From a virus, in IMG/VR virus record IMGVR_UViG_3300028925_008836, positions 1 to 23,492 of that record: a stretch of 23,492 nucleotides of DNA. One strand, written 5' to 3'. A program made the position numbers and the translations under genes. Positions 4,401 through 16,795 of this stretch are shown in pieces. The notes beneath the pieces were generated by a model that saw nothing but the letters and a program-made list of their open reading frames with translations, had not been told where the DNA came from and searched no databases. Positions within the stretch are counted from its first letter, which is position 1; every line of letters begins with the position of its first letter.

Positions 4401-4625
4401 ATGGACTACTTGCAACATATCATTCAAGCCTTTCATTCAGAGTTAGTTGTTAACATTGTTTATCATAACAAGGTAAGCAAGTCAGGGCGTCAGGATCAAC
4501 GCAGGAAAGTTGAGTGTAGGGTTACAGGTTTTGATTCTACTAAAGACTTCTTTCGTATCACAACAACAGACGGAAAATATCGGACCTTGCGATATGAAGG
4601 AGTAAGATCAGTAACATTTAAATAG
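4401..4625 (+). CDS. Small unknown protein (74 aa)
   Basis: The start at ATG 4401 is preceded by AGGAGC seven bases upstream. An in-frame ATG at 4356 would add 15 residues and also has a weak GGA nearby, so the longer form is possible. The protein begins MDYLQHIIQAFHSELVVNI and ends FRITTTDGKYRTLRYEGVRS, a short beta-rich end resembling small WYL-like or Sm-like folds. That is only an impression. It has many Lys/Arg around SGRQDQRRKVECR, which could bind nucleic acid. It is the first of three plus-strand genes separated by conserved hairpins and is likely early, because it diverges from the packaging genes. Confidence 0.65.
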   Translation: MDYLQHIIQAFHSELVVNIVYHNKVSKSGRQDQRRKVECRVTGFDSTKDFFRITTTDGKYRTLRYEGVRSVTFK

Positions 4626-4631
4626 GCAACC

Positions 4632-4658
4632 TAGGGGCTGGCACTTCGCCAGCCCCTA
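4632..4658 (+). promoter_or_regulatory. Intergenic hairpin A (covarying pair with 4968-4994)
   Basis: A perfect 11-bp stem, TAGGGGCTGGC / GCCAGCCCCTA, with a 5-nt ACTTC loop. It lies just after the stop of the first plus gene. No T-run follows, so it is not a standard terminator. It could stabilise or cut the mRNA, or be a factor-dependent stop. The second copy differs by a C:G to G:C swap that keeps the stem. Confidence 0.7.
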
Positions 4659-4685
4659 CCATGCAGGACAACAGGAGCGAGTAAG

Positions 4686-4961
4686 ATGAGTAACTACCCC
4701 GACGGATGTAACGGACCAGAGGAACACACGTGGTCATGGAATAACGAACATGACGTTGAGCAGTGGGACGACGAAGCTAACGCAATCGTAATGAAGAATC
4801 TTCCCAATGCTTCGGAAGAGCTTCAGCAGGAATACAAAGAATCCTTCTACGATGCTGGGCCAGAGGATGGCGAGGGGATTGCTGAAGAGGAGCTTGAGAA
4901 GCATTGGATGCACTACAAGCTCACCCCTCTCATGAAGGAGTCCATTGGCTTCGGGAAGTAA
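4686..4961 (+). CDS. Acidic unknown protein (91 aa)
   Basis: A strongly acidic protein with a Trp-rich start (EEHTWSWNNEHDVEQWDDEA) and a helical, Glu-rich centre (ASEELQQEYKESFYDAG, GIAEEELEKHW). The ATG at 4686 follows AGGAGCGAGTAAG, a good ribosome binding site. The same AGTAAGATGA start context occurs at the next gene. It is flanked on both sides by the two matched hairpins. No family, signal peptide or membrane segment is recognised. The high negative charge would suit a DNA-mimic or inhibitor protein of the type phages use early against host enzymes, but nothing in the sequence proves this. Confidence 0.65.
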   Translation: MSNYPDGCNGPEEHTWSWNNEHDVEQWDDEANAIVMKNLPNASEELQQEYKESFYDAGPEDGEGIAEEELEKHWMHYKLTPLMKESIGFGK

Positions 4962-4967
4962 GTAACC

Positions 4968-4994
4968 TAGGGGGTGGCACTTCGCCACCCCCTA
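4968..4994 (+). promoter_or_regulatory. Intergenic hairpin B (covarying pair with 4632-4658)
   Basis: An 11-bp perfect stem, TAGGGGGTGGC / GCCACCCCCTA, with the same ACTTC loop as hairpin A. It differs from A only by one compensatory base pair, and it is likewise followed by TACCATG and then a ribosome binding site. No T-run follows. Confidence 0.7.
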
Positions 4995-5021
4995 CCATGA
5001 AGTACTAGGGAGACAAGTAAG

Positions 5022-5252
5022 ATGATTGATTCAGAGATACGCCGTATCAAAAAAGGCATAGCAGATATGGAAAAATTCTACACCGAAGAGTTGGATGAAG
5101 TTGTGGTCAACTTGAAAGCTGTGAAGGTATCGTTGGAAGAGTGTCGGGCTGACCATCAAGAAGCATTGAGGTTGCTCGCACAGTGCGAGAGTGAGAGAAG
5201 GATAGCAGTGGCACAAGTTGCACACTTCAAAGAAGTACTCGCTAGGAAGTAA
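5022..5252 (+). CDS. Coiled-coil protein (76 aa)
   Basis: Nearly the whole protein has a heptad-like pattern of hydrophobic residues in a charged helix: IRRIKKGIADMEKFYTEEL, VVVNLKAVKVSLEECRADH, ALRLLAQCESERRIAVAQV. It is therefore probably a dimeric or trimeric coiled coil. The ATG at 5022 follows AGGGAGACAAGTAAG, a good binding site. It is the last gene of the three-gene plus cassette and is followed by a strong UUCG terminator. There is no recognised family and no membrane segment. Possible roles range from structural adapter to regulator; none can be chosen from sequence alone. Confidence 0.65.
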   Translation: MIDSEIRRIKKGIADMEKFYTEELDEVVVNLKAVKVSLEECRADHQEALRLLAQCESERRIAVAQVAHFKEVLARK

Positions 5253-5591: not shown

Positions 5592-5643
5592 GGTACGGGC
5601 GCGGGCGCTGGCGGCGGCGAGGTACGGGCGCTAGGTACGGGCG
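5592..5643 (+). repeat. Cluster 1 of GGTACGGGCG repeats (3 copies)
   Basis: Copies at 5592-5601, 5621-5630 and 5634-5643, preceded by GCGA, GCGA and GCTA; the last two are 13 bp apart. They sit in a GC-rich gene-free stretch (5520-5688) that also has the near-palindrome CGCGAGCGTTAGCGAGCG at 5573-5590. The cluster lies beyond the terminator of the minus-strand DUF932-like gene. Confidence 0.85.
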
Positions 5644-5732: not shown

Positions 5733-6545
5733 CTAGGCTCTGATCTCTAGCTGGTCGGGATCCAGCCAACTGCCCGACTCAAAAGCTAGTTCCTTTCCTA
5801 GCTGGTGGAATTTTGACATCGAGGTCGGAAGGTCTCTGATATTTCTATCCTTTAAGATTTCCGTGGTGGCATTGTTGAAGCCCCAAAGAGTGCGCTGTTC
5901 AAATTCTTCGTGCCTAGGGTTACGGTACTCACCTAAAACTTTAGGCGCGTAACTCCAAGGCATCACGTTAGCGTCACACATCTTCACTAGAAAATCATGG
6001 GCTACCGTGTCGGATAAATCAGTAGCCTTATAAGACTCGATCACTTTCTGGTGATCGGTGTGTGCTTCCTCAATCTCACCAGCTAAACGATTAAGGCGAT
6101 CAGGTAGGACACTTTTAATATTCGTGGTGTGCATGTGACCTGTTGCGAAGTCACCCATGAAATCCATGTTGGTACAGACCATGACCACAATTCCACCAAT
6201 GATACCAGCCGACATTGATTTGTCGTGGCTGTTGCGAAGCCCGATAGATAAGTTGTAATCCTCACCTGTTGCGACATCATCACGGTCTATATTCATGACC
6301 CCGAAAAGTCTAGCCGTATCAAACATCACGTCCTCGCCTTCAACGTCAACCTTCCCACCTTCCAATGAGAATCTTTCTTGACCCACGTTCCAACCCCAAT
6401 GGTTCAAGGTCTTATACAACATGTCCAAAAATTCTCCATGTGGTAGAGGGTTATGGGTGCGTGTTGCTGGAGGTGTTGGAGTATCCCGAACCTCTTCCTC
6501 TGTGACCTTCGCCCCTCCGATAAGTGTCTGTCTTACTGTTGCCAT
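5733..6545 (-). CDS. DUF932-like phage/plasmid protein
   Basis: 270 aa; ATG 6545 follows GGGAG. The order of segments resembles the DUF932 (phage/plasmid-related, TIGR03299-like) family: a central LSIGLRNSHDKSMSAGIIGG with a following VMVCTNMDFM, then KMCDANVMPWSYAPKVLGEY, and near the end TLWGFNNATTEILKDRN. Many phages and plasmids carry such a protein. Its biochemical role is not settled and links to anti-restriction or replication are suggestions only. It is a one-gene unit with its own promoter (6616-6588) and its own UUCG terminator, divergent from the 55-aa gene. Confidence in the family is moderate; the gene itself is clear. Confidence 0.8.
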   Translation of the reverse strand: MATVRQTLIGGAKVTEEEVRDTPTPPATRTHNPLPHGEFLDMLYKTLNHWGWNVGQERFSLEGGKVDVEGEDVMFDTARLFGVMNIDRDDVATGEDYNLSIGLRNSHDKSMSAGIIGGIVVMVCTNMDFMGDFATGHMHTTNIKSVLPDRLNRLAGEIEEAHTDHQKVIESYKATDLSDTVAHDFLVKMCDANVMPWSYAPKVLGEYRNPRHEEFEQRTLWGFNNATTEILKDRNIRDLPTSMSKFHQLGKELAFESGSWLDPDQLEIRA

Positions 6546-7031: not shown

Positions 7032-7067
7032 GGTACGGGCGCTAGGTACGGGCGCTAGGTACGGGCG
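7032..7067 (+). repeat. Cluster 2 of GGTACGGGCG repeats (3 copies, 13-bp period)
   Basis: Copies at 7032-7041, 7045-7054 and 7058-7067 form three adjacent 13-bp units (AGGTACGGGCGCT and variants). The cluster lies directly past the terminator of the seam-joined minus operon. Confidence 0.9.
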
Positions 7068-7120: not shown

Positions 7121-7384
7121 TCACTTCTTAGAATCGTACCCACATACACACTGATCTTCCTCTAGCATAGACTCAGTCAACTCCATTATTTCATTCTTTG
7201 GAAGATCATTTAAGACTGGACCCATCAATTCCAAATACTTTTTGTGACTACCACTACGCTCACACATCAGATCATTCAGAAGTTCCTGTGGTAGCTTCTC
7301 TAAGATGGGCCAGATTATATTGTAAACCCATTCGTCCATATAACCTACGGCAAACCCATCCACTCGCATCTCTAGTTCTATCAT
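7121..7384 (-). CDS. Unknown protein, last gene of the seam-joined operon (87 aa)
   Basis: Translation most likely begins at ATG 7384, because AGGTGGCATC before it is the repeated ribosome-binding seam of this operon and the ATG overlaps the TGA of the zinc-ribbon gene. The nine residues upstream in frame are then not used. The protein has a helical centre (DEWVYNIIWPILEKLPQELL), the charged stretch CERSGSHKKYLELM, an acidic end (NEIMELTESMLEEDQ) and a closing CVCGYDSKK with two Cys. No family is recognised. The terminator follows immediately. Confidence 0.7.
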   Translation of the reverse strand: MIELEMRVDGFAVGYMDEWVYNIIWPILEKLPQELLNDLMCERSGSHKKYLELMGPVLNDLPKNEIMELTESMLEEDQCVCGYDSKK

Positions 7385-7788
7385 GATGCCACCTTCTCGT
7401 CTGCTTGCCATCCCTCTTCTTCACTTGTCTTCATCTCCCAAGTATCGTCGTGGTATTCAGCCCCCTCACTATCAATAAGGAAGTCATTGAACAAGGTATT
7501 AGTTGACTGACATATGCCACACTTCCACGCTTCAGGCTCTTCAGAGATTCCCTTGGGCGATATGAAATCAAAAAGACCCATATGATGTAGGGGGTCATCT
7601 ATCCCCTGTCCTTCCATCATTCCACAGTCATTGCACTTCACTGCGATATCCCTTCTCATCTCGTTTATCTCAGCTTTTTTCTTGCAAGTCTTACAGGTGA
7701 ATGTGCTCACGAATCTATTGTCATCAACGCAGATAACAGCATGGGAATCGCAAGCAGGACAGTAGATCGTATGGGTAGGCTCTCTCAT
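7381..7788 (-). CDS. Double zinc-ribbon protein (135 aa)
   Basis: Four CxxC pairs are visible: Cys10/13 (YCPAC), 32/35 (CKTC), 52/55 (CNDC) and 90/93 (CGIC). They fit two zinc ribbons, the first made by pairs one and two, the second by pairs three and four. Between the last two pairs lies an acidic, His-containing loop (DDPLHHMGLFDF), and after Cys93 comes a long acidic tail ending DEKVAS. Zinc ribbons in phage small proteins often bind nucleic acid or RNA polymerase, but the partner here is unknown. It starts at ATG 7788 right after a seam copy and ends in another seam copy shared with the next gene. Confidence 0.75.
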   Translation of the reverse strand: MREPTHTIYCPACDSHAVICVDDNRFVSTFTCKTCKKKAEINEMRRDIAVKCNDCGMMEGQGIDDPLHHMGLFDFISPKGISEEPEAWKCGICQSTNTLFNDFLIDSEGAEYHDDTWEMKTSEEEGWQADEKVAS

Positions 7789-7982
7789 GATGCCACCTCT
7801 CTGAAAAGTTCTTTTAAATCAAAATTAAAATCTCCCTCACTATCGACAACCTGAACAAGATCGTGGAGTAGATCCGAAACGTATTCCCTAGCCAGTGGAG
7901 AGTCTTTAATTTCCTCTGGATCTAAGCCCACATCCAACAAGGTTTTCCAGTGTGCCAGTAACATTCTGATAGGCTCTATCAT
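7785..7982 (-). CDS. Small helical unknown protein (65 aa)
   Basis: Begins MIEPIRMLLAHWKTLLDVGL and continues with charged helices (EYVSDLLHDLVQVV), ending FREVAS, where the EVAS* residues are encoded by the seam repeat. It starts at ATG 7982 behind GAGGTGGCATC and overlaps both neighbours in ATGA junctions. It may have two or three helices. No family is recognised and no membrane segment is evident. Confidence 0.7.
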   Translation of the reverse strand: MIEPIRMLLAHWKTLLDVGLDPEEIKDSPLAREYVSDLLHDLVQVVDSEGDFNFDLKELFREVAS

Positions 7983-8158
7983 GATGCCACCTCTTCAACT
8001 TTTACTTCCTGATCAGAGAGACTTTCGCAATGATCATATGCAAGCACACCCTGACTTTGCTGTTTATCAAATTCCTTTCTGGCTTCCTCTTTAGTTTCAG
8101 CTTCCACCCTTAGCTCGTAATAGGTAGCCTGCGTCCAGAAAAACTTATAGTTTCTCAT
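7979..8158 (-). CDS. Small paralogue A with a VEAET-EEA motif (59 aa)
   Basis: A 59-aa frame starting at ATG 8158 behind the seam ribosome binding site. It begins MRNYKFFWTQATYYELRVEA and continues ETKEEARKEFDKQQSQ. It aligns without gaps over its first ~35 residues with the gene before it (MKDYEFLWSRTDTFGLTVRA, ETEEEARKIFDKGEQ), so the two arose by tandem duplication. The YxLxVxAETxEEA pattern is that of small one-domain proteins such as the DpnD/PcfM-like group (moderate recognition). Function unknown. It ends VEEVAS in the seam. Confidence 0.75.
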   Translation of the reverse strand: MRNYKFFWTQATYYELRVEAETKEEARKEFDKQQSQGVLAYDHCESLSDQEVKVEEVAS

Positions 8159-8337
8159 GATGCCACCTCTCTTTCGTCGATCAATTCTAAACCAAAGTCA
8201 TCGCCACAATTTATATCAACGTCCACATCATACTGCTCACCCTTATCGAATATCTTTCTAGCTTCCTCTTCAGTCTCAGCCCTTACTGTCAAGCCGAATG
8301 TATCAGTTCTAGACCAAAGGAATTCGTAGTCCTTCAT
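8155..8337 (-). CDS. Small paralogue B with a VRAET-EEA motif (60 aa)
   Basis: Partner of the 59-aa gene just downstream. The first ~35 residues match closely, while the C-terminal halves differ (acidic DVDVDINCGDDFGLELIDE here), which suggests an old duplication followed by divergence, or C-terminal replacement. The ATG at 8337 follows a slightly changed seam (one base different). It ends DEREVAS within the seam. It probably forms a small beta-alpha-beta-type domain as in DpnD/PcfM-like proteins; function unknown. Confidence 0.78.
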   Translation of the reverse strand: MKDYEFLWSRTDTFGLTVRAETEEEARKIFDKGEQYDVDVDINCGDDFGLELIDEREVAS

Positions 8338-8507
8338 GATGGCACCTCTATCATCTTTTCAAAATCTTTTTGAAGTGCATTCCTTACAGCTTCTAATCCG
8401 TTGATCGCATCGCATATGTCAATGTGATACCCAACGTCCTTCTGCAATTGGTGTACTAGTTGCAACACCCACACTGGCGTTGACCTATCTTCGAGTAGCT
8501 CTTCCAT
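8334..8507 (-). CDS. First gene of the seam-joined operon, unknown (57 aa)
   Basis: The ATG at 8507 is preferred over the in-frame ATG at 8519 because GGGGGGAAGT lies directly before it, while the upstream ATG has no binding site. The protein has an acidic start (MEELLEDRSTPVWVLQLVHQ), then helices with two Cys-free segments and one Cys (IDICDAINGLEAVRN), ending MIEVPS. The promoter at 8580-8553 gives a leader of about 40 nt. No family recognised. Confidence 0.7.
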   Translation of the reverse strand: MEELLEDRSTPVWVLQLVHQLQKDVGYHIDICDAINGLEAVRNALQKDFEKMIEVPS

Positions 8508-8552: not shown

Positions 8553-8580
8553 AATATAACATTATCACGCAGTAAGTCAA
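8553..8580 (-). promoter_or_regulatory. Promoter of the seam-joined operon
   Basis: Minus strand TTGACT (8580-8575), 16 bp, TATATT (8558-8553), with CAGCCC before the -35. It has the same spacing and -10 as the promoters at 6654 and 10618. The start would lie near 8546. Confidence 0.7.
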
Positions 8581-8736: not shown

Positions 8737-8759
8737 GGTACGGGCGCTAGGTACGGGCG
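8737..8759 (+). repeat. Cluster 3 of GGTACGGGCG repeats (2 copies, 13-bp period)
   Basis: Copies at 8737-8746 and 8750-8759. The last five bases of the second copy form part of the hairpin at 8755-8782. Confidence 0.88.
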
Positions 8760-8796: not shown

Positions 8797-8892
8797 CTAA
8801 ATCATTTGCAACCCTAGTAATAAAAAATATAAAAATACTATGAAGGTTAATGCTCCCCCTAGCTTATCTCCGATTGTTTCTTTTCTCTTCAT
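8797..8892 (-). CDS. 31-aa single-pass membrane peptide
   Basis: The ATG at 8892 overlaps the TGA of the Gp88-like gene (ATGA), so it is translationally coupled to it. The peptide has a basic start (MKRKETIGDKLGG) followed by one hydrophobic segment (ALTFIVFLYFLLLGLQMI) that reaches the C-terminus: a positive-inside, single-span layout. Such micro-proteins are easily missed. A role as a small holin-like, pinholin-like or membrane-modulating peptide is possible but unproven. Confidence 0.65.
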   Translation of the reverse strand: MKRKETIGDKLGGALTFIVFLYFLLLGLQMI

Positions 8893-9563
8893 GCCCACAC
8901 CACAAATCCAGATGTATCTTTCTTTCCCTTGCTACCCTTAGCAGTAAGCCCGACTATGCAGGGCTTAGGATCCCTGAATCTCCAATCATTTTCGGTGCCA
9001 TCAATCACTTGCAAACCGTGCCAAGTCTCAGGCAATTCTTTTCCAAACACTACGGATACATTCATTCCATTATCTAGGGCAGTATCTATATCTTTAGTTG
9101 TGGACTCTTCCGACCTAGAGAAAGTGAGGTCATAATTTTCTGGAATATTTTTTCTATTCTTATGCTTGGTGTAATCATAAAATTGTATGTTTGGGAAATC
9201 TTCCATGAACCCAAACCTTTCCCACCTTAGGTCACTAGTCCCATCTAATCTAATGACTGGCTGTAGATTCTTTTTAATTGCGCGACGCTCTACACTTGCA
9301 ATGTCTTTCACTAATAAGTCTAGAAATTTATCGCGTTCCTCAAAAAACATTATTGTCTTTTGGATCCTTGCCTCTTGTGTTCTTGTCATCTGACCTCGAC
9401 CTGAGAAGTAAAGACAAGCGTTCCTGCATCCTTCAGTAGATGAAGCACAAGCGTTGTGACCTGACTGTTCAGCAGGTGCTAGGTAAAGGATCGCGCCCTC
9501 TATCCCATGTTCTGGTGCGTTGGCTTGCTTAGGTGAGCTTGTTGCATGTCCTAGTAAGTGCAT
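8889..9563 (-). CDS. Gp88-like phage protein with a Cys cluster
   Basis: 224 aa from ATG 9563, which has AGGAGAAAGT before it; the 31 codons upstream in frame lie in the promoter region and are not used. The N-terminal third contains LLGHATSSPKQANA, ILYLAPAEQSGHNAC and SSTEGCRNACLYFSGRG, with Cys39, Cys46 and Cys50 (C-x6-C-x3-C). A middle IRLDGTSDLRWE follows. This order resembles the phage Gene-product-88-like family as I recall it (laP..SG...C.....C...CL..sGRG). The three Cys could hold a metal or cluster, reminiscent of, but not equal to, a radical-SAM CxxxCxxC. Function unknown. It is coupled to the 31-aa membrane peptide. Confidence 0.7.
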   Translation of the reverse strand: MHLLGHATSSPKQANAPEHGIEGAILYLAPAEQSGHNACASSTEGCRNACLYFSGRGQMTRTQEARIQKTIMFFEERDKFLDLLVKDIASVERRAIKKNLQPVIRLDGTSDLRWERFGFMEDFPNIQFYDYTKHKNRKNIPENYDLTFSRSEESTTKDIDTALDNGMNVSVVFGKELPETWHGLQVIDGTENDWRFRDPKPCIVGLTAKGSKGKKDTSGFVVWA

Positions 9564-9594
9564 ACTTTCTCCTATGAGAAGTTTAACATGAATA

Positions 9595-9622
9595 AACTTA
9601 ACATTATATAGAGTAATGTCAA
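9595..9622 (-). promoter_or_regulatory. Promoter of the Gp88-like gene
   Basis: Minus strand TTGACA (9622-9617), 16 bp, TAAGTT (9600-9595), with CAGCCC before the -35. A TATAAT lies only 8 bp past the -35, too close to pair with it. The start would lie near 9588 and the leader would be about 25 nt with AGGAG. Confidence 0.55.
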
Positions 9623-9806
9623 GGGCTGTAGATAAATTAACGGCCAGACCTAGCAAATAAATCTATTTAGTTATGCGGCGACACTGTAGCGGGCTGCCTA
9701 GTGAGTGAGTGAGTAAGTGATCGCGCCATCTAGCAGAAAAATCTAAAAAAATATGCGAGGCCAGCACAAATTTGCACGAAGGGCAGAAAAATCTATAGAA
9801 ATGCTA

Positions 9807-9868
9807 GGTACGGGCGTCAGACCGGCGAGGTACGGGCGTGAGATCTATTAATTTGCTAGGTACGGGCG
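9807..9868 (+). repeat. Cluster 4 of GGTACGGGCG repeats (3 copies)
   Basis: Copies at 9807-9816, 9829-9838 and 9859-9868, spaced 22 and 30 bp. Upstream, 9657-9806 holds GCAGAAAAATCTA twice (9733 and 9783) and a GTGA/GTAA tetranucleotide tract near 9700-9720, but no gene I can support. Confidence 0.88.
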
Positions 9869-10771: not shown

Positions 10772-11092
10772 ATGAACAGAGTAGCAAGATGGAGAAAATT
10801 AGACAGAAGTACTACACACCAAGCCTTCAGAGATCAACTGGCCTCAGTTGTTCGCGATCTCAAGCGTGACAACCCCCGAATAGATCCTCGCGATCTCGAC
10901 TATGTCGGGCACGATGGCATGAACAGCGCAGACATTGCATGTGAACTGGGATACATCGGAGCAATGCTCTACTCAATAGAGGTAGAGGTAGCCAACACTA
11001 TGGCCTATGGATACGAGCATGACCACCTCAGGAAAGATGTTCAACAGTGCAAGGATCTCGTTGATCATTTGAATGAGAGGTTACCAGTATGA
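10772..11092 (+). CDS. Unknown protein (106 aa), first gene of the plus operon
   Basis: The ATG at 10772 follows GAGGAGTACGAAAG. The N-terminus is very basic (MNRVARWRKLDRSTTHQAFR), followed by RDLKRDNPRIDPRDLDYVGH, then a more hydrophobic helical part (IACELGYIGAMLYSIEVEVA) and a charged helical end. The basic first third could contact nucleic acid. No family recognised. It is coupled by ATGA to the next gene. Confidence 0.75.
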   Translation: MNRVARWRKLDRSTTHQAFRDQLASVVRDLKRDNPRIDPRDLDYVGHDGMNSADIACELGYIGAMLYSIEVEVANTMAYGYEHDHLRKDVQQCKDLVDHLNERLPV

Positions 11093-11376
11093 GTGATGAT
11101 TACAAACCAGCCCAAGTCACGATGAACAATGAGGAAGATCCATTTATCAGAAACCTAAACGAGTTGATAGAGGTACTCCAAGACTTGGTTGCAGAACATC
11201 CCAAGGCAGGGAATGTGGGAGTACAGGTAGAGGAAGATTGGGAGCCTTGCAATGAGTGCAGTGACGCAAAGTTAGTGAACCACTGTGTGGATTTCAAAAC
11301 ACAGATTGAGTACCACCCAACTGGTAGCAGTGGGTACGAGCGAAGTGGTTGCATCATCATTAAAGGGGGTGAGTAA
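11089..11376 (+). CDS. Unknown protein (95 aa)
   Basis: Starts at ATG 11089 overlapping the previous stop. It has a helical segment FIRNLNELIEVLQDLVAEHP, then GNVGVQVEEDWEPCNECSDA and CVDFKTQIEYHPTGSSGYER. Cys residues occur as CNEC plus two more single Cys, too irregular for a confident zinc site. The end GCIIIKGGE looks like a beta strand. The pattern helix, then G-x-V-x-V, resembles small domains that display a short beta sheet; no named family. Its TAA overlaps the next ATG (TAATG). Confidence 0.72.
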   Translation: MSDDYKPAQVTMNNEEDPFIRNLNELIEVLQDLVAEHPKAGNVGVQVEEDWEPCNECSDAKLVNHCVDFKTQIEYHPTGSSGYERSGCIIIKGGE

Positions 11377-14750: not shown

Positions 14751-15054
14751 CGTCTTCCTTCTCAACGGTCTCAGGCTCAGGCCCATCTGCTAATACCTTT
14801 ACCGGACCGGACCCAGTCTTTAGGTCTATCTCCAGTCTGGCATTCTCATACTGTATACCACCCTTGGATGTACGATCCCAGATGGCTACCTTGAGCTTAG
14901 GCATTGCTCCTTCCTTAGCCTTGTCCACCATTGCCCGGAGAAACTCTTCGGTAAATTCTATGGTCCCAGTCTTTAGTGGGTGACGGTCACTCGCTCTAAA
15001 TTTATTACTGAAGATTGCGAAGTCTAGCTTTGGTTGGTCTTTGTAATCATGCAT
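14734..15054 (-). CDS. Probable single-stranded DNA-binding protein
   Basis: 106 aa from ATG 15054 (a TTG just before it is also possible). Start PKLDFAIFSNKFRASDRHPL, then FTEEFLRAMVDKAKEG, then beta-strand-like KLKVAIWDRTSKGGIQYENA and LEIDLKTGSGPVKV, and an acidic tail ending KEDDGLPF. The terminal DDGLPF strongly recalls the acidic phenylalanine tip of bacterial SSB (DDDIPF), used to recruit partner proteins. The body is not a clear SSB OB fold by eye, so it may be a distinct phage SSB. Directly downstream of the annealing protein, a role in protecting or handing over ssDNA is likely. Confidence 0.6.
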   Translation of the reverse strand: MHDYKDQPKLDFAIFSNKFRASDRHPLKTGTIEFTEEFLRAMVDKAKEGAMPKLKVAIWDRTSKGGIQYENARLEIDLKTGSGPVKVLADGPEPETVEKEDDGLPF

Positions 15055-15733
15055 CAATCAATTCCCCTTGTTCTCTTTCATCGTTGATTTGTAGTGCTAC
15101 ATCGGAAACCTTGTGTATCTGTATCATTAGTTTTGCTATTGTTTTCTCATCGCGACCTGCGATAGCAGACTTAATGCCTGCCTTAAGGGTATCATCCGGT
15201 ACCCAACCTGCTTCAAAGACCTCATTGCAAAGATCCTTCAGTGCCTGCACTGTCTCTTCGGTATGGTCCTGCACTACCCCATTGCTCTGGGCCTTGGCCT
15301 TGATAGGCTTCTTGACTGGAGCCTTGGTAACACCGTTAGCTTCTTCCATTGGTAGACCATCGCCTGAGTAGCCATAGTTAAACAATCCATACAAGCTAAA
15401 TGCCTTTGTCATACAGCGCATTTTAGCATCAGAAATATCTCTACTGGAAGGATGCGCGATGCTCTTCATCCGGTAATCCATAACCGGTAGCCACATCTCT
15501 TTCCCTACCTCACCTATGACTACAGTACAAGACACCATAGCAGTGCCCCCCTCGTAGTAGGTAACATCATCCCACACAATTTCCATCTCTGGATAGTTCT
15601 CCATCATGATACGATACGCATGACTCCAACTCAGGTAGGTTAGCCCACCCTTGTCCTCTGTGTATTCGTTCACGTTGACCTTACTTAATGTACCCCAAAT
15701 ACTACCTGCTGTACTAGATTTCTTAGCTGGCAT
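15047..15733 (-). CDS. Single-strand annealing protein, DUF1071/Sak3-like
   Basis: 228 aa from ATG 15733, with GGAGATAAAGGAA before it. The N-terminal half carries the typical run IWGTLSKVNVNEYTEDKGGL followed by TYLSWSHAYRIMMENYP, then VTYYEGGTAMVSCTVVIGEV and MDYRMKSIAHPSSRDISDAK plus MRCMTKAFSLYGLFNYGYSG, which I recognise as the DUF1071 (Sak3-type, Rad52-like) phage recombinase domain. The Lys/Ala linker after it leads to a helical C-terminal part. These proteins coat and anneal ssDNA made by the partner exonuclease. The gene overlaps the exonuclease gene by 11 bp and precedes the SSB-like gene: a classic phage recombination set. Confidence 0.85.
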   Translation of the reverse strand: MPAKKSSTAGSIWGTLSKVNVNEYTEDKGGLTYLSWSHAYRIMMENYPEMEIVWDDVTYYEGGTAMVSCTVVIGEVGKEMWLPVMDYRMKSIAHPSSRDISDAKMRCMTKAFSLYGLFNYGYSGDGLPMEEANGVTKAPVKKPIKAKAQSNGVVQDHTEETVQALKDLCNEVFEAGWVPDDTLKAGIKSAIAGRDEKTIAKLMIQIHKVSDVALQINDEREQGELIDA

Positions 15734-16550
15734 TTCCTTTATCTCCTCTCCATTGTGGACAAAAATCTGCGACCTCACACCAATCCTCACACCTGATGTA
15801 CTTCGCCTTCCCATCTACTATCGAGAAGGATCCTGTCTTTTGCTTATTGATATACTCAACTGCTTCCTGTCTTATATCGAATGACCGTGGTTTACCCCCA
15901 CCATTTACTTGATAAGCGCCACGAGCCCAACGCTCTTCCGGTGTACAAGGGATTGTCTTCTCTTGTGTGTGAAGCTTTACCCTCTGAGCTATGTAAGCAT
16001 CCTGTCTTTCATCTCTCCACATGGGGACAGACAGTACCACAACAGGCGACTCCGGGTAGTTATACTTGCCGGTACGAGACCTCATCCAATCCCGGCAGAT
16101 GCATACGATGTTTAACTTGGTAGCCGTCAATCCATTCTGACGAATCAACCATGCATACATGTTCAACTGTTTCTCCCAGTCTTCCTTGAGTCCACGTTGA
16201 ACACTGTAGGTTGATGTAACCTTATAATCCATAAGGGATCCATCGTCACCCATCAAGTCAATGGCGCCACTGATTGTAGTTCCGTCATGTTCTGCATGGA
16301 ACCTACGCTCTTTGGTGCCCTCACTGTCAGCTTGTTCAATGACATTGTGTACGCCCTTGCCAAGCAACTTCCACACTTCCTCTCTTACATCTCCACTTAT
16401 CTCATCCTCATGAGCATGCCACAGCCGGCGAATTTGTGGTGGTTTGATTAACTCTGTCACGCTAAAATCTGCCCCATCCTTTGTGTATGGGTCATTCCGG
16501 ATAGCGTCTACGATAGAGTCTGGTGCGCCGTAACGATTGGTAAGTTTCAA
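15723..16550 (-). CDS. RecB/Cas4-like PD-(D/E)xK exonuclease with a Cys cluster
   Basis: 275 aa. No ATG fits; the TTG at 16550 is chosen because GGAG lies six bases before it and it overlaps the previous stop as TTGA (a TTG four codons earlier is possible). Motifs: a His in GVHNVIEQ (His68), GAIDLMGDDG (Asp98), LMDYKVTS (Asp108, Lys110) and QLNMYAWL (Gln128), the core of RecB/Cas4/lambda-exo-type nucleases. Cys202 and the C-terminal C-x3-C-x5-C (254, 258, 264) fit the four Cys of a Cas4/AddB-like 4Fe-4S cluster. It likely resects duplex ends for the annealing protein encoded next. Confidence 0.85.
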   Translation of the reverse strand: MKLTNRYGAPDSIVDAIRNDPYTKDGADFSVTELIKPPQIRRLWHAHEDEISGDVREEVWKLLGKGVHNVIEQADSEGTKERRFHAEHDGTTISGAIDLMGDDGSLMDYKVTSTYSVQRGLKEDWEKQLNMYAWLIRQNGLTATKLNIVCICRDWMRSRTGKYNYPESPVVVLSVPMWRDERQDAYIAQRVKLHTQEKTIPCTPEERWARGAYQVNGGGKPRSFDIRQEAVEYINKQKTGSFSIVDGKAKYIRCEDWCEVADFCPQWRGDKGNAS

Positions 16551-16795
16551 GAGATTCTCCAAACTCCAACCGTTTGCTCAGTGTCAGGCATACGTCTGAC
16601 AATATACTTGCGTCCGTCAACGTTGTACCTCGTAGCAGAAGAGCGAACACTGCTCTCATGCTTCATGTCATCACACTCTACTATGAAACACTCATCCACT
16701 TCCAATTCTCTGAATGGGTACGAGTTTCTCTCTGCTCTGTTAGGGATTGGTACACCCCTCAGAATTTCCAATCCACCCTCTACTTGATCGCTCAT
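16547..16795 (-). CDS. Small phage protein, paralogue of the next gene (82 aa)
   Basis: Begins MSDQVEGGLEILRGVPIPNR, then NSYPFRELEVDECFIVECDD, SSVRSSATRYNVDGRKYIVR and GVWRIS at the end. This Y-P-F-x-x-x-E-V-x-x, then R-S-S-A-x-R-Y, R-K, G-V-W-R pattern is common in small phage proteins of unknown function (DUF7303-like as I recall). The neighbouring 87-aa gene has the same layout (YLPMERIEVNDMIEL ... KKFSIRV ... GIGIWR), so the two are paralogues. ATG 16795 overlaps the previous stop (ATGA). A replication or DNA-binding accessory role is guessed from position. Confidence 0.78.
   Translation of the reverse strand: MSDQVEGGLEILRGVPIPNRAERNSYPFRELEVDECFIVECDDMKHESSVRSSATRYNVDGRKYIVRRMPDTEQTVGVWRIS

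Follow-up and report, generated by a model that had tools for sequence, protein, structure and literature searches.

Why should one short sequence stand at every border in an operon of otherwise unrelated small genes? This question is raised by a complete IMG/VR virus record of 23,492 bases (the whole stretch analysed here, hereafter the window), which belongs to marine phages (viruses of bacteria). On the minus strand between 8507 and 7121, six small genes (g1–g6) form an operon, in which each gene overlaps its neighbour by 4 nt at all five junctions (Table 1). When near-exact copies are counted, the 16-nt sequence AGAGGTGGCATCATGA is found at all five junctions. This sequence, the seam (A)GAGGTGGCATCATGA, is exact at three of them, carries one change at another and carries two changes at the remaining one. 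The preliminary description had already given five copies, three of them exact, with one change in each of the others, although it left the strand unmentioned; the last copy (seam 5), however, has two mismatches over 16 nt, and one over the 15-nt part that encodes EVAS-stop. It was also found, in agreement with that description, that every copy encodes the end of the upstream protein (mostly EVAS-stop), provides the ribosome binding site (RBS) and contains the next start codon: all five copies contain ATGA, in which the TGA stop of the upstream gene overlaps the ATG of the downstream gene, and the Shine–Dalgarno (SD) sequence GAGGTG, or AAGGTG in the last copy, is located 5 nt before the next ATG. 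Between seams 2 and 4, the identity extends to 20 nt.

Table 1. Positions of the operon, its seams and other features in the window
Feature	Position	Strand	Remarks
GP88 (PF17338)	8889–9656	-	conserved flank of variable interval
Putative sigma-70-like promoter of the operon, TTGACT-16-TATATT	8553–8580	-	ahead of g1; read from the sequence
g1, 57 aa (MEELLED...IEVPS)	8334–8507	-	homologues in L068 (65%) and L149 (47%)
Seam 1 (g1/g2), AGAGGTGCCATCATGA	8334–8349	-	1 mismatch; tail EVPS
g2, 60 aa, ends REVAS	8155–8337	-	homologue in L068 (57%)
Seam 2 (g2/g3)	8155–8170	-	exact; tail EVAS
g3, 59 aa, ends EEVAS	7979–8158	-	g2 paralogue
Seam 3 (g3/g4)	7979–7994	-	exact; tail EVAS
g4, 65 aa, ends REVAS	7785–7982	-	
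Seam 4 (g4/g5)	7785–7800	-	exact; tail EVAS
g5, 135 aa, ends EKVAS	7381–7788	-	probable zinc-ribbon protein; sub-threshold hits
Seam 5 (g5/g6), GAAGGTGGCATCATGA	7381–7396	-	tail EKVAS
g6, 87 aa, last gene, without seam tail	7121–7384	-	homologues in L068 (after seam) and L066 (own RBS)
DUF932 protein	5733–6545	-	conserved flank of variable interval
Second seam type, copy 1 (70-nt repeat that includes a hairpin, an RBS and a start codon)	4620–4689	+	
70-nt hairpin repeat, copy 2	4956–5025	+	hybrid of relatives' copies 2 and 5
Sak-type single-strand annealing protein (PF06378)	15047–15814	-	E = 1.2e-28
PD-(D/E)XK nuclease, likely partner exonuclease	15723–16562	-	E = 6e-7; frame overlaps Sak

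The statement that the encoded proteins are unrelated except for one pair was confirmed: BLASTP among g1–g6 detected g2 and g3 (38% identity, E = 6e-11) as the single related pair, and no relatedness was found by BLASTP for g1, g4, g5 and g6. No confident family match was obtained for g1–g6 in Pfam, PHROG or NCBIfam, and none of these collections gave a match indicating nin-gene homology of the cassettes. The g5 protein carries cysteine pairs and shows weak matches to the DpnI, Lar and zinc-ribbon families, all of which are below the cut-offs; judging from these features, it may be a nucleic-acid-binding protein of the zinc-ribbon kind. A defence role, or any other known function, was considered for the cassettes and rejected, the sub-threshold zinc-ribbon hits being the sole indication. 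The cassettes would have accessory functions, perhaps in host takeover.

The recurrence of the seam was compared with two kinds of expectation. One is that none of 100 dinucleotide shuffles reached the observed number of seam matches within 3 mismatches. Another is a junction control, in which overlapping junctions were compared pairwise within one strand of one locus, and a pair was counted if the 11 or more nt immediately before the ATG were identical. Such pairs account for 12 of 640 in 15 seam-clade loci, which include near-duplicates, so that the 12 pairs are non-independent, versus 2 of 6,567 in 159 other loci. The control counts were 0/1179 for four isolate records (three relatives and the lambda nin region), 0/1113 for 69 other terminase relatives, 0/1826 for 37 bacterial contigs with DUF932 and 2/2449 for 49 other viral contigs, both of the latter pairs being in the phage contig L027. 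The distinct repeats behind the 12 pairs are the EVAS seam (the window group and L149), a second seam ending in EVTG (L083, the same contig as L151) and one 35-nt repeat in L074. No repeated junctions were found in the first 50 kb of the isolates HTVC027P, HTVC023P and DSL-LC04, whose terminases are related (53–59% identity), and repeated seams were absent from the bacterial genomes scanned with the DUF932 alignment, where the homologues are distant (28–35%).

Two of these contigs deserve a separate description. On the minus strand of L027, an unrelated phage contig, two distinct 19-nt ATGA seams, AAAGGAGTTAGCAAAATGA and ATTGGAGTATTTAAAATGA, are each repeated (6628/6762 and 9780/10013), and the bordering genes have no evident resemblance. 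In L074, adjacent genes on the minus strand (3695 and 3967) have 35 nt in common, GGAGGAGTACTAATGGAACACATTAGCGGAATCAT, covering the RBS, the stop/start and the first codons.

The occurrence of the seam in other viruses bears on a simpler explanation. The exact 16-mer was found in 34 unrelated viral contigs, several of which are related to each other, and in 30 of the 34 it is placed where two open frames truly overlap as ATGA. The hits are mostly single ordinary junctions, and for this reason the 16-mer was rejected as a marker of the system. A single copy is an ordinary, favoured solution that unites SD and overlap and yields the EVAS tail as a by-product; the remarkable features are the repetition of the seam and the change of gene content at it. 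If the seams are translation signals only, the SD and the ATGA overlap were reached repeatedly by selection and have no role in recombination. The count of 30/34 agrees with this explanation, as do the fit of GAGGTG and AAGGAGGTGA to the anti-Shine–Dalgarno and the dispensability of RNA structure, five 56-nt folds at the seams being no stabler than shuffles (z-scores −0.16 to −0.92). We nevertheless regard it as unlikely, because the few junctions of unrelated phages that bear an SD have varied spacers, whereas GCATC is invariant across all five window junctions, because other loci show hardly any recurrence within a genome, and because the seam tracks the lineage while the gene content changes at it.

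The last point can be examined in relatives of the window. Searches with single cassette proteins recovered two near-identical contigs as the sole relatives, and the GP88 search gave mainly distant ones; the terminase search and the DUF932 alignment were the productive routes. The two nearest contigs, 3300028925_009785 and 3300028925_010511, match the window over the operon at more than 99% identity, with unchanged genes and seams. Part of g2 in 009785, a short segment at window 8211–8227, is replaced by GAGGATCCTAAAATTTATTGTGG, the sequence of the L068 lineage, which is a sign of short-tract recombination between lineages. A further difference lies outside the operon: a 95-aa gene of the window (11089–11376) is missing from 009785, with one breakpoint at an ATGA junction without a long seam and with the 5′ part of the next gene diverged. 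Homology is therefore not required for a difference of this kind.

Among more distant relatives, the terminase and DUF932 alignment yielded about a dozen distinct genomes with the GP88 and DUF932 flanks, and the gene content of the interval between these flanks varies widely. L068 and L150, which are separate assemblies, have the order g1-seam-g2-seam-g6, g3–g5 being absent; their g1/g2 seam has the same C variant as seam 1 of the window, and the module difference between L068 and the window has its breakpoint at the EVAS seam. L066 has g6 only, with a different RBS and an upstream context that differs from that of L068, and the alignment of the two starts 6 nt before the g6 ATG. In L149, the order is a g2/g3-like gene, a seam, a fused gene, a seam and a new gene. 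The last 36 nt of this g2/g3-like gene are 89% identical to the 3′ end of g5, the rest being different from g5, and the C-terminal half of the fused gene corresponds to g4 (84% over 63 aa), its N-terminal part being different; the g1 homologue is relocated further down and has no seam tail. The terminase identity of the relatives that are without g3–g5, or that have the g5-like tail on another gene, is about 91%. Cassettes of this kind are absent from L147 and L152. No tRNA genes, looked for as a hotspot, were found in seven sources.

A sister clade has its own repeated seam, GGAGGTGACAGGTTAATG, which is 18 bp long and encodes EVTG; a scan for it gave matches in L083, L148 and L153 only. L083 has the order EKIF-seam-KTF-seam-ADL with GGAGGTGACAGGTTAATG occurring twice, and L148 and L153 have EKIF-seam-ADL. 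When L083 is aligned with the other two, they differ by one cassette, both ends of which are inside the 18-bp seam, and the flanks are closely similar except for a divergent stretch in EKIF. The ADL proteins are about 85–97% identical across contexts, and the ADL start is preceded by the seam and KTF, by the seam and EKIF, or by a promoter leader (TTGACAYRGTGATAG...), the last arrangement being that of L082, L145 and L074. Likewise, the KTF tail GGAGGTGACAG continues into GTTAATG (the next gene) or, in L082 and L074, into CTTGACA, where the stop codon TGA is within the −35 box of the next promoter. The same sister-clade genes are joined in several ways, and the switch is at the seam or the start codon.

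The promoter leader itself was seen more widely. A sigma-70-type leader, TTGACAYRGTGATAG..TATATTGG, stands before several small genes per genome in L082 (2540–3441), L074, L083, L148 and L145; it is present in four copies in L082 and resembles mobile regulatory cassettes.

The seam is thus repeated and specific to the lineage, and differences in gene content fall at it. Relatives with an unchanged gene order and diverged seams, which the preliminary description had named as evidence against its idea, were not what the comparison showed. Its proposal that cassettes could be cleanly added, lost or shuffled is borne out as far as single-gene presence or absence and rearrangement at the seams are concerned; that homology is the cause is what we infer, and the EVAS seams are unchanged in the two closest relatives. 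A relic of tandem duplication would offer another origin for these junctions: a gene would have been duplicated repeatedly together with its junction, and the genes would have diverged past recognition, leaving the seam. The g2/g3 paralogues, the related small proteins that recur in L149 and L083, and the common start of the two L074 genes, which resembles a partial duplication, are consistent with it. Yet g1, g4, g5 and g6, like EKIF and ADL, show no relatedness by BLASTP, and whole unrelated genes are involved in the presence/absence differences; the duplication origin is accordingly given only a small chance.

A second seam type in the window, the 70-nt hairpin repeat, shows an exchange at higher resolution. 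Its two copies are 80% identical and form the strong hairpin GGGGSTGGCACTTCGCCASCCCC, versus five copies in 009785 and 010511, where the region is about 750 bp longer and additionally contains a short frame, identified by eye, and a frame of 110 aa, or 101 aa if the better-placed ATG is used. In copy 2 of the window, the crossover falls within CCCCTACCATGAAGTA, a stretch of 16 bp that the relatives' copies 2 and 5 have in common. No other event in the window's own lineage is resolved as clearly, and it lies away from the EVAS seams. The two near relatives (equivalents in L144 and L064) are the only contigs of the viral collection in which the hairpin repeat was found. Two events are resolved within a repeat, one of 18 bp in the sister clade and one of 16 bp here; independent resolved events are few, and each may be a gain or a loss. 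Moreover, a deletion cleanly between overlapping genes falls at the junction under any mechanism. In the standard model of phage mosaicism (PMC3233612, PMC3029335), illegitimate (random) recombination is followed by selection for intact genes, and the seam would be a passive outcome of the overlaps. The event at 11089–11376, which lacks a long seam, fits this model, but the model does not explain why identical seams occur at different genes of one genome, nor why the resolved events end in 16- and 18-bp repeats, and we consider it improbable here.

We think it probable that the locus is a cassette island whose lineage-specific, copied seams enable clean homology-based exchange, likely by way of Sak and the nuclease. 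The GP88–DUF932 interval would be an accessory-gene island in the marine phage group, and its small genes would be transcribed as one operon with coupled translation, each junction being formed by an SD within the last codons of one gene that overlaps the next start. Recombination may have copied one junction sequence to several borders in some lineages, and the seam tracks the lineage (GAGGTGGCATCATGA in one, GGAGGTGACAGGTTAATG in another) more than the gene. With a border of identical sequence and frame, exchange anywhere inside a seam would give two intact, coupled genes, and cassettes could be cleanly lost, gained or replaced. Seam homology is likely to drive the exchange, and Sak is its likely agent: Sak and the PD-(D/E)XK nuclease, as judged from their domains, are the pair expected for annealing recombination, and they would use short stretches of homology shared by co-infecting genomes or by genomes in replication. 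Rad52-like phage recombinases work on short, diverged homologies. The minimum for efficient pairing is 23–27 bp for Red-beta and 31–34 bp for RecA (PMC3945230), and the seam, at 15–18 bp, is shorter; exchange at the seam is therefore taken to be rare but selected, or to be helped by neighbouring similarity such as the 20 nt of seams 2 and 4. A further-reaching possibility, which we hold tentatively, is a self-propagating architecture in which, per lineage, one seam spreads to every border of the accessory operon. Seam-bearing cassettes would then move by phage annealing recombination with frames and translation unharmed, and the lineages would have evolved different seams (EVAS, EVTG, the hairpin repeat and possibly the two in L027).

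The preliminary description knew of no named phage system of this kind, which was too strong, since the ninR chain, boundary sequences, T4 cassettes and Start-Associated Sequences (SAS) precede it. The boundary-sequence hypothesis is said to go back to Susskind and Botstein in 1978 and to Clark et al. in 2001 (HK620), and T4 reportedly has mobile regulatory cassettes (Arbiol et al., 2010), in which an intergenic regulatory repeat is thought to mediate shuffling. Judging from this description, the T4 cassettes resemble the hairpin repeat at 4620–5025 and the sister clade's promoter leaders; they are non-coding, whereas the EVAS seam is coding. The lambda ninR region, the 'chain of interlinked genes' of Kroger and Hobom (1982) as quoted in PMC8022706, is similar to the seam operon in its small unrelated genes, ATGA overlaps, RBS inside the preceding gene and variability among relatives. 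The nin junctions (J02459), however, have no identical repeat, the best pair differing at 4 of 17 positions. The short conserved boundary sequences of the lambdoid phages HK620 and P22 are presented in PMC3233612 and PMC3029335 as hypothetical targets of between-gene recombination with limited evidence. Two of their traits, the same short sequence at several gene borders and the gain, loss or exchange of modules with breakpoints in that sequence, were found here; unlike the boundary sequences as described, the seam is coding, carries the RBS, stop and start, is multicopy in one operon and is lineage-specific.

SAS are known from Cluster K mycobacteriophages (PMC3203893) and Cluster EF Microbacterium phages (PMC7302621). 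As far as these accounts go, they are RBS repeats, mostly at non-overlapping genes with an upstream gap of more than 50 bp and spread over half the genome; in Cluster K, a 13-bp GGGATAGGAGCCC-type repeat is located 3–7 bp before start codons. The likeness is that a repeat conserved beyond the needs of the RBS takes the RBS position of varied non-structural genes. The seam differs in its sequence and in its place, covering the stop and the start of genes that overlap within one operon, and the sections of PMC3203893 and PMC7302621 that deal with SAS report no role as an exchange point. If the seam were a SAS-like regulatory site, it would be bound by a factor of the phage or the host that controls the translation of all cassettes jointly, as is suspected for the SAS repeats of both phage groups; its clustering in one operon and its conservation beyond the SD would suit such a site. 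This is very improbable, because a conserved RNA structure is absent and because, in sister lineages, homologous genes are preceded by a different sequence or by promoter leaders. Integron cassettes are likewise single genes with a repeated border, but the seam overlaps coding sequence and has no stable structure; no site-specific integrase was found among the window proteins scanned (part of the ORFs), and no stable RNA fold at the seams.

The seam operon combines features of the ninR chain, boundary sequences and SAS. In the long-standing dispute on mosaic breaks at gene edges, as outlined in PMC3233612 and PMC3029335, targeted boundary sequences are set against random joining with selection. 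This phage group offers natural cases of a repeated boundary sequence that differs by lineage and falls where genes were gained or lost, together with an annealing protein encoded by the phage, so that the boundary-sequence model becomes directly testable. The seams also suggest a design rule for cassettes: stop, RBS, start and homology arm within 15–18 bp.

Another repeat of the window, GTACGGGCG, was found in eleven copies, all on the plus strand, in short intergenic arrays, often of 13-nt units (5593–5643, 7033–7067, 8738–8759 and 9808–9868). This element (CGCCCGTAC / CCGTACCT) is present in all the relatives checked.
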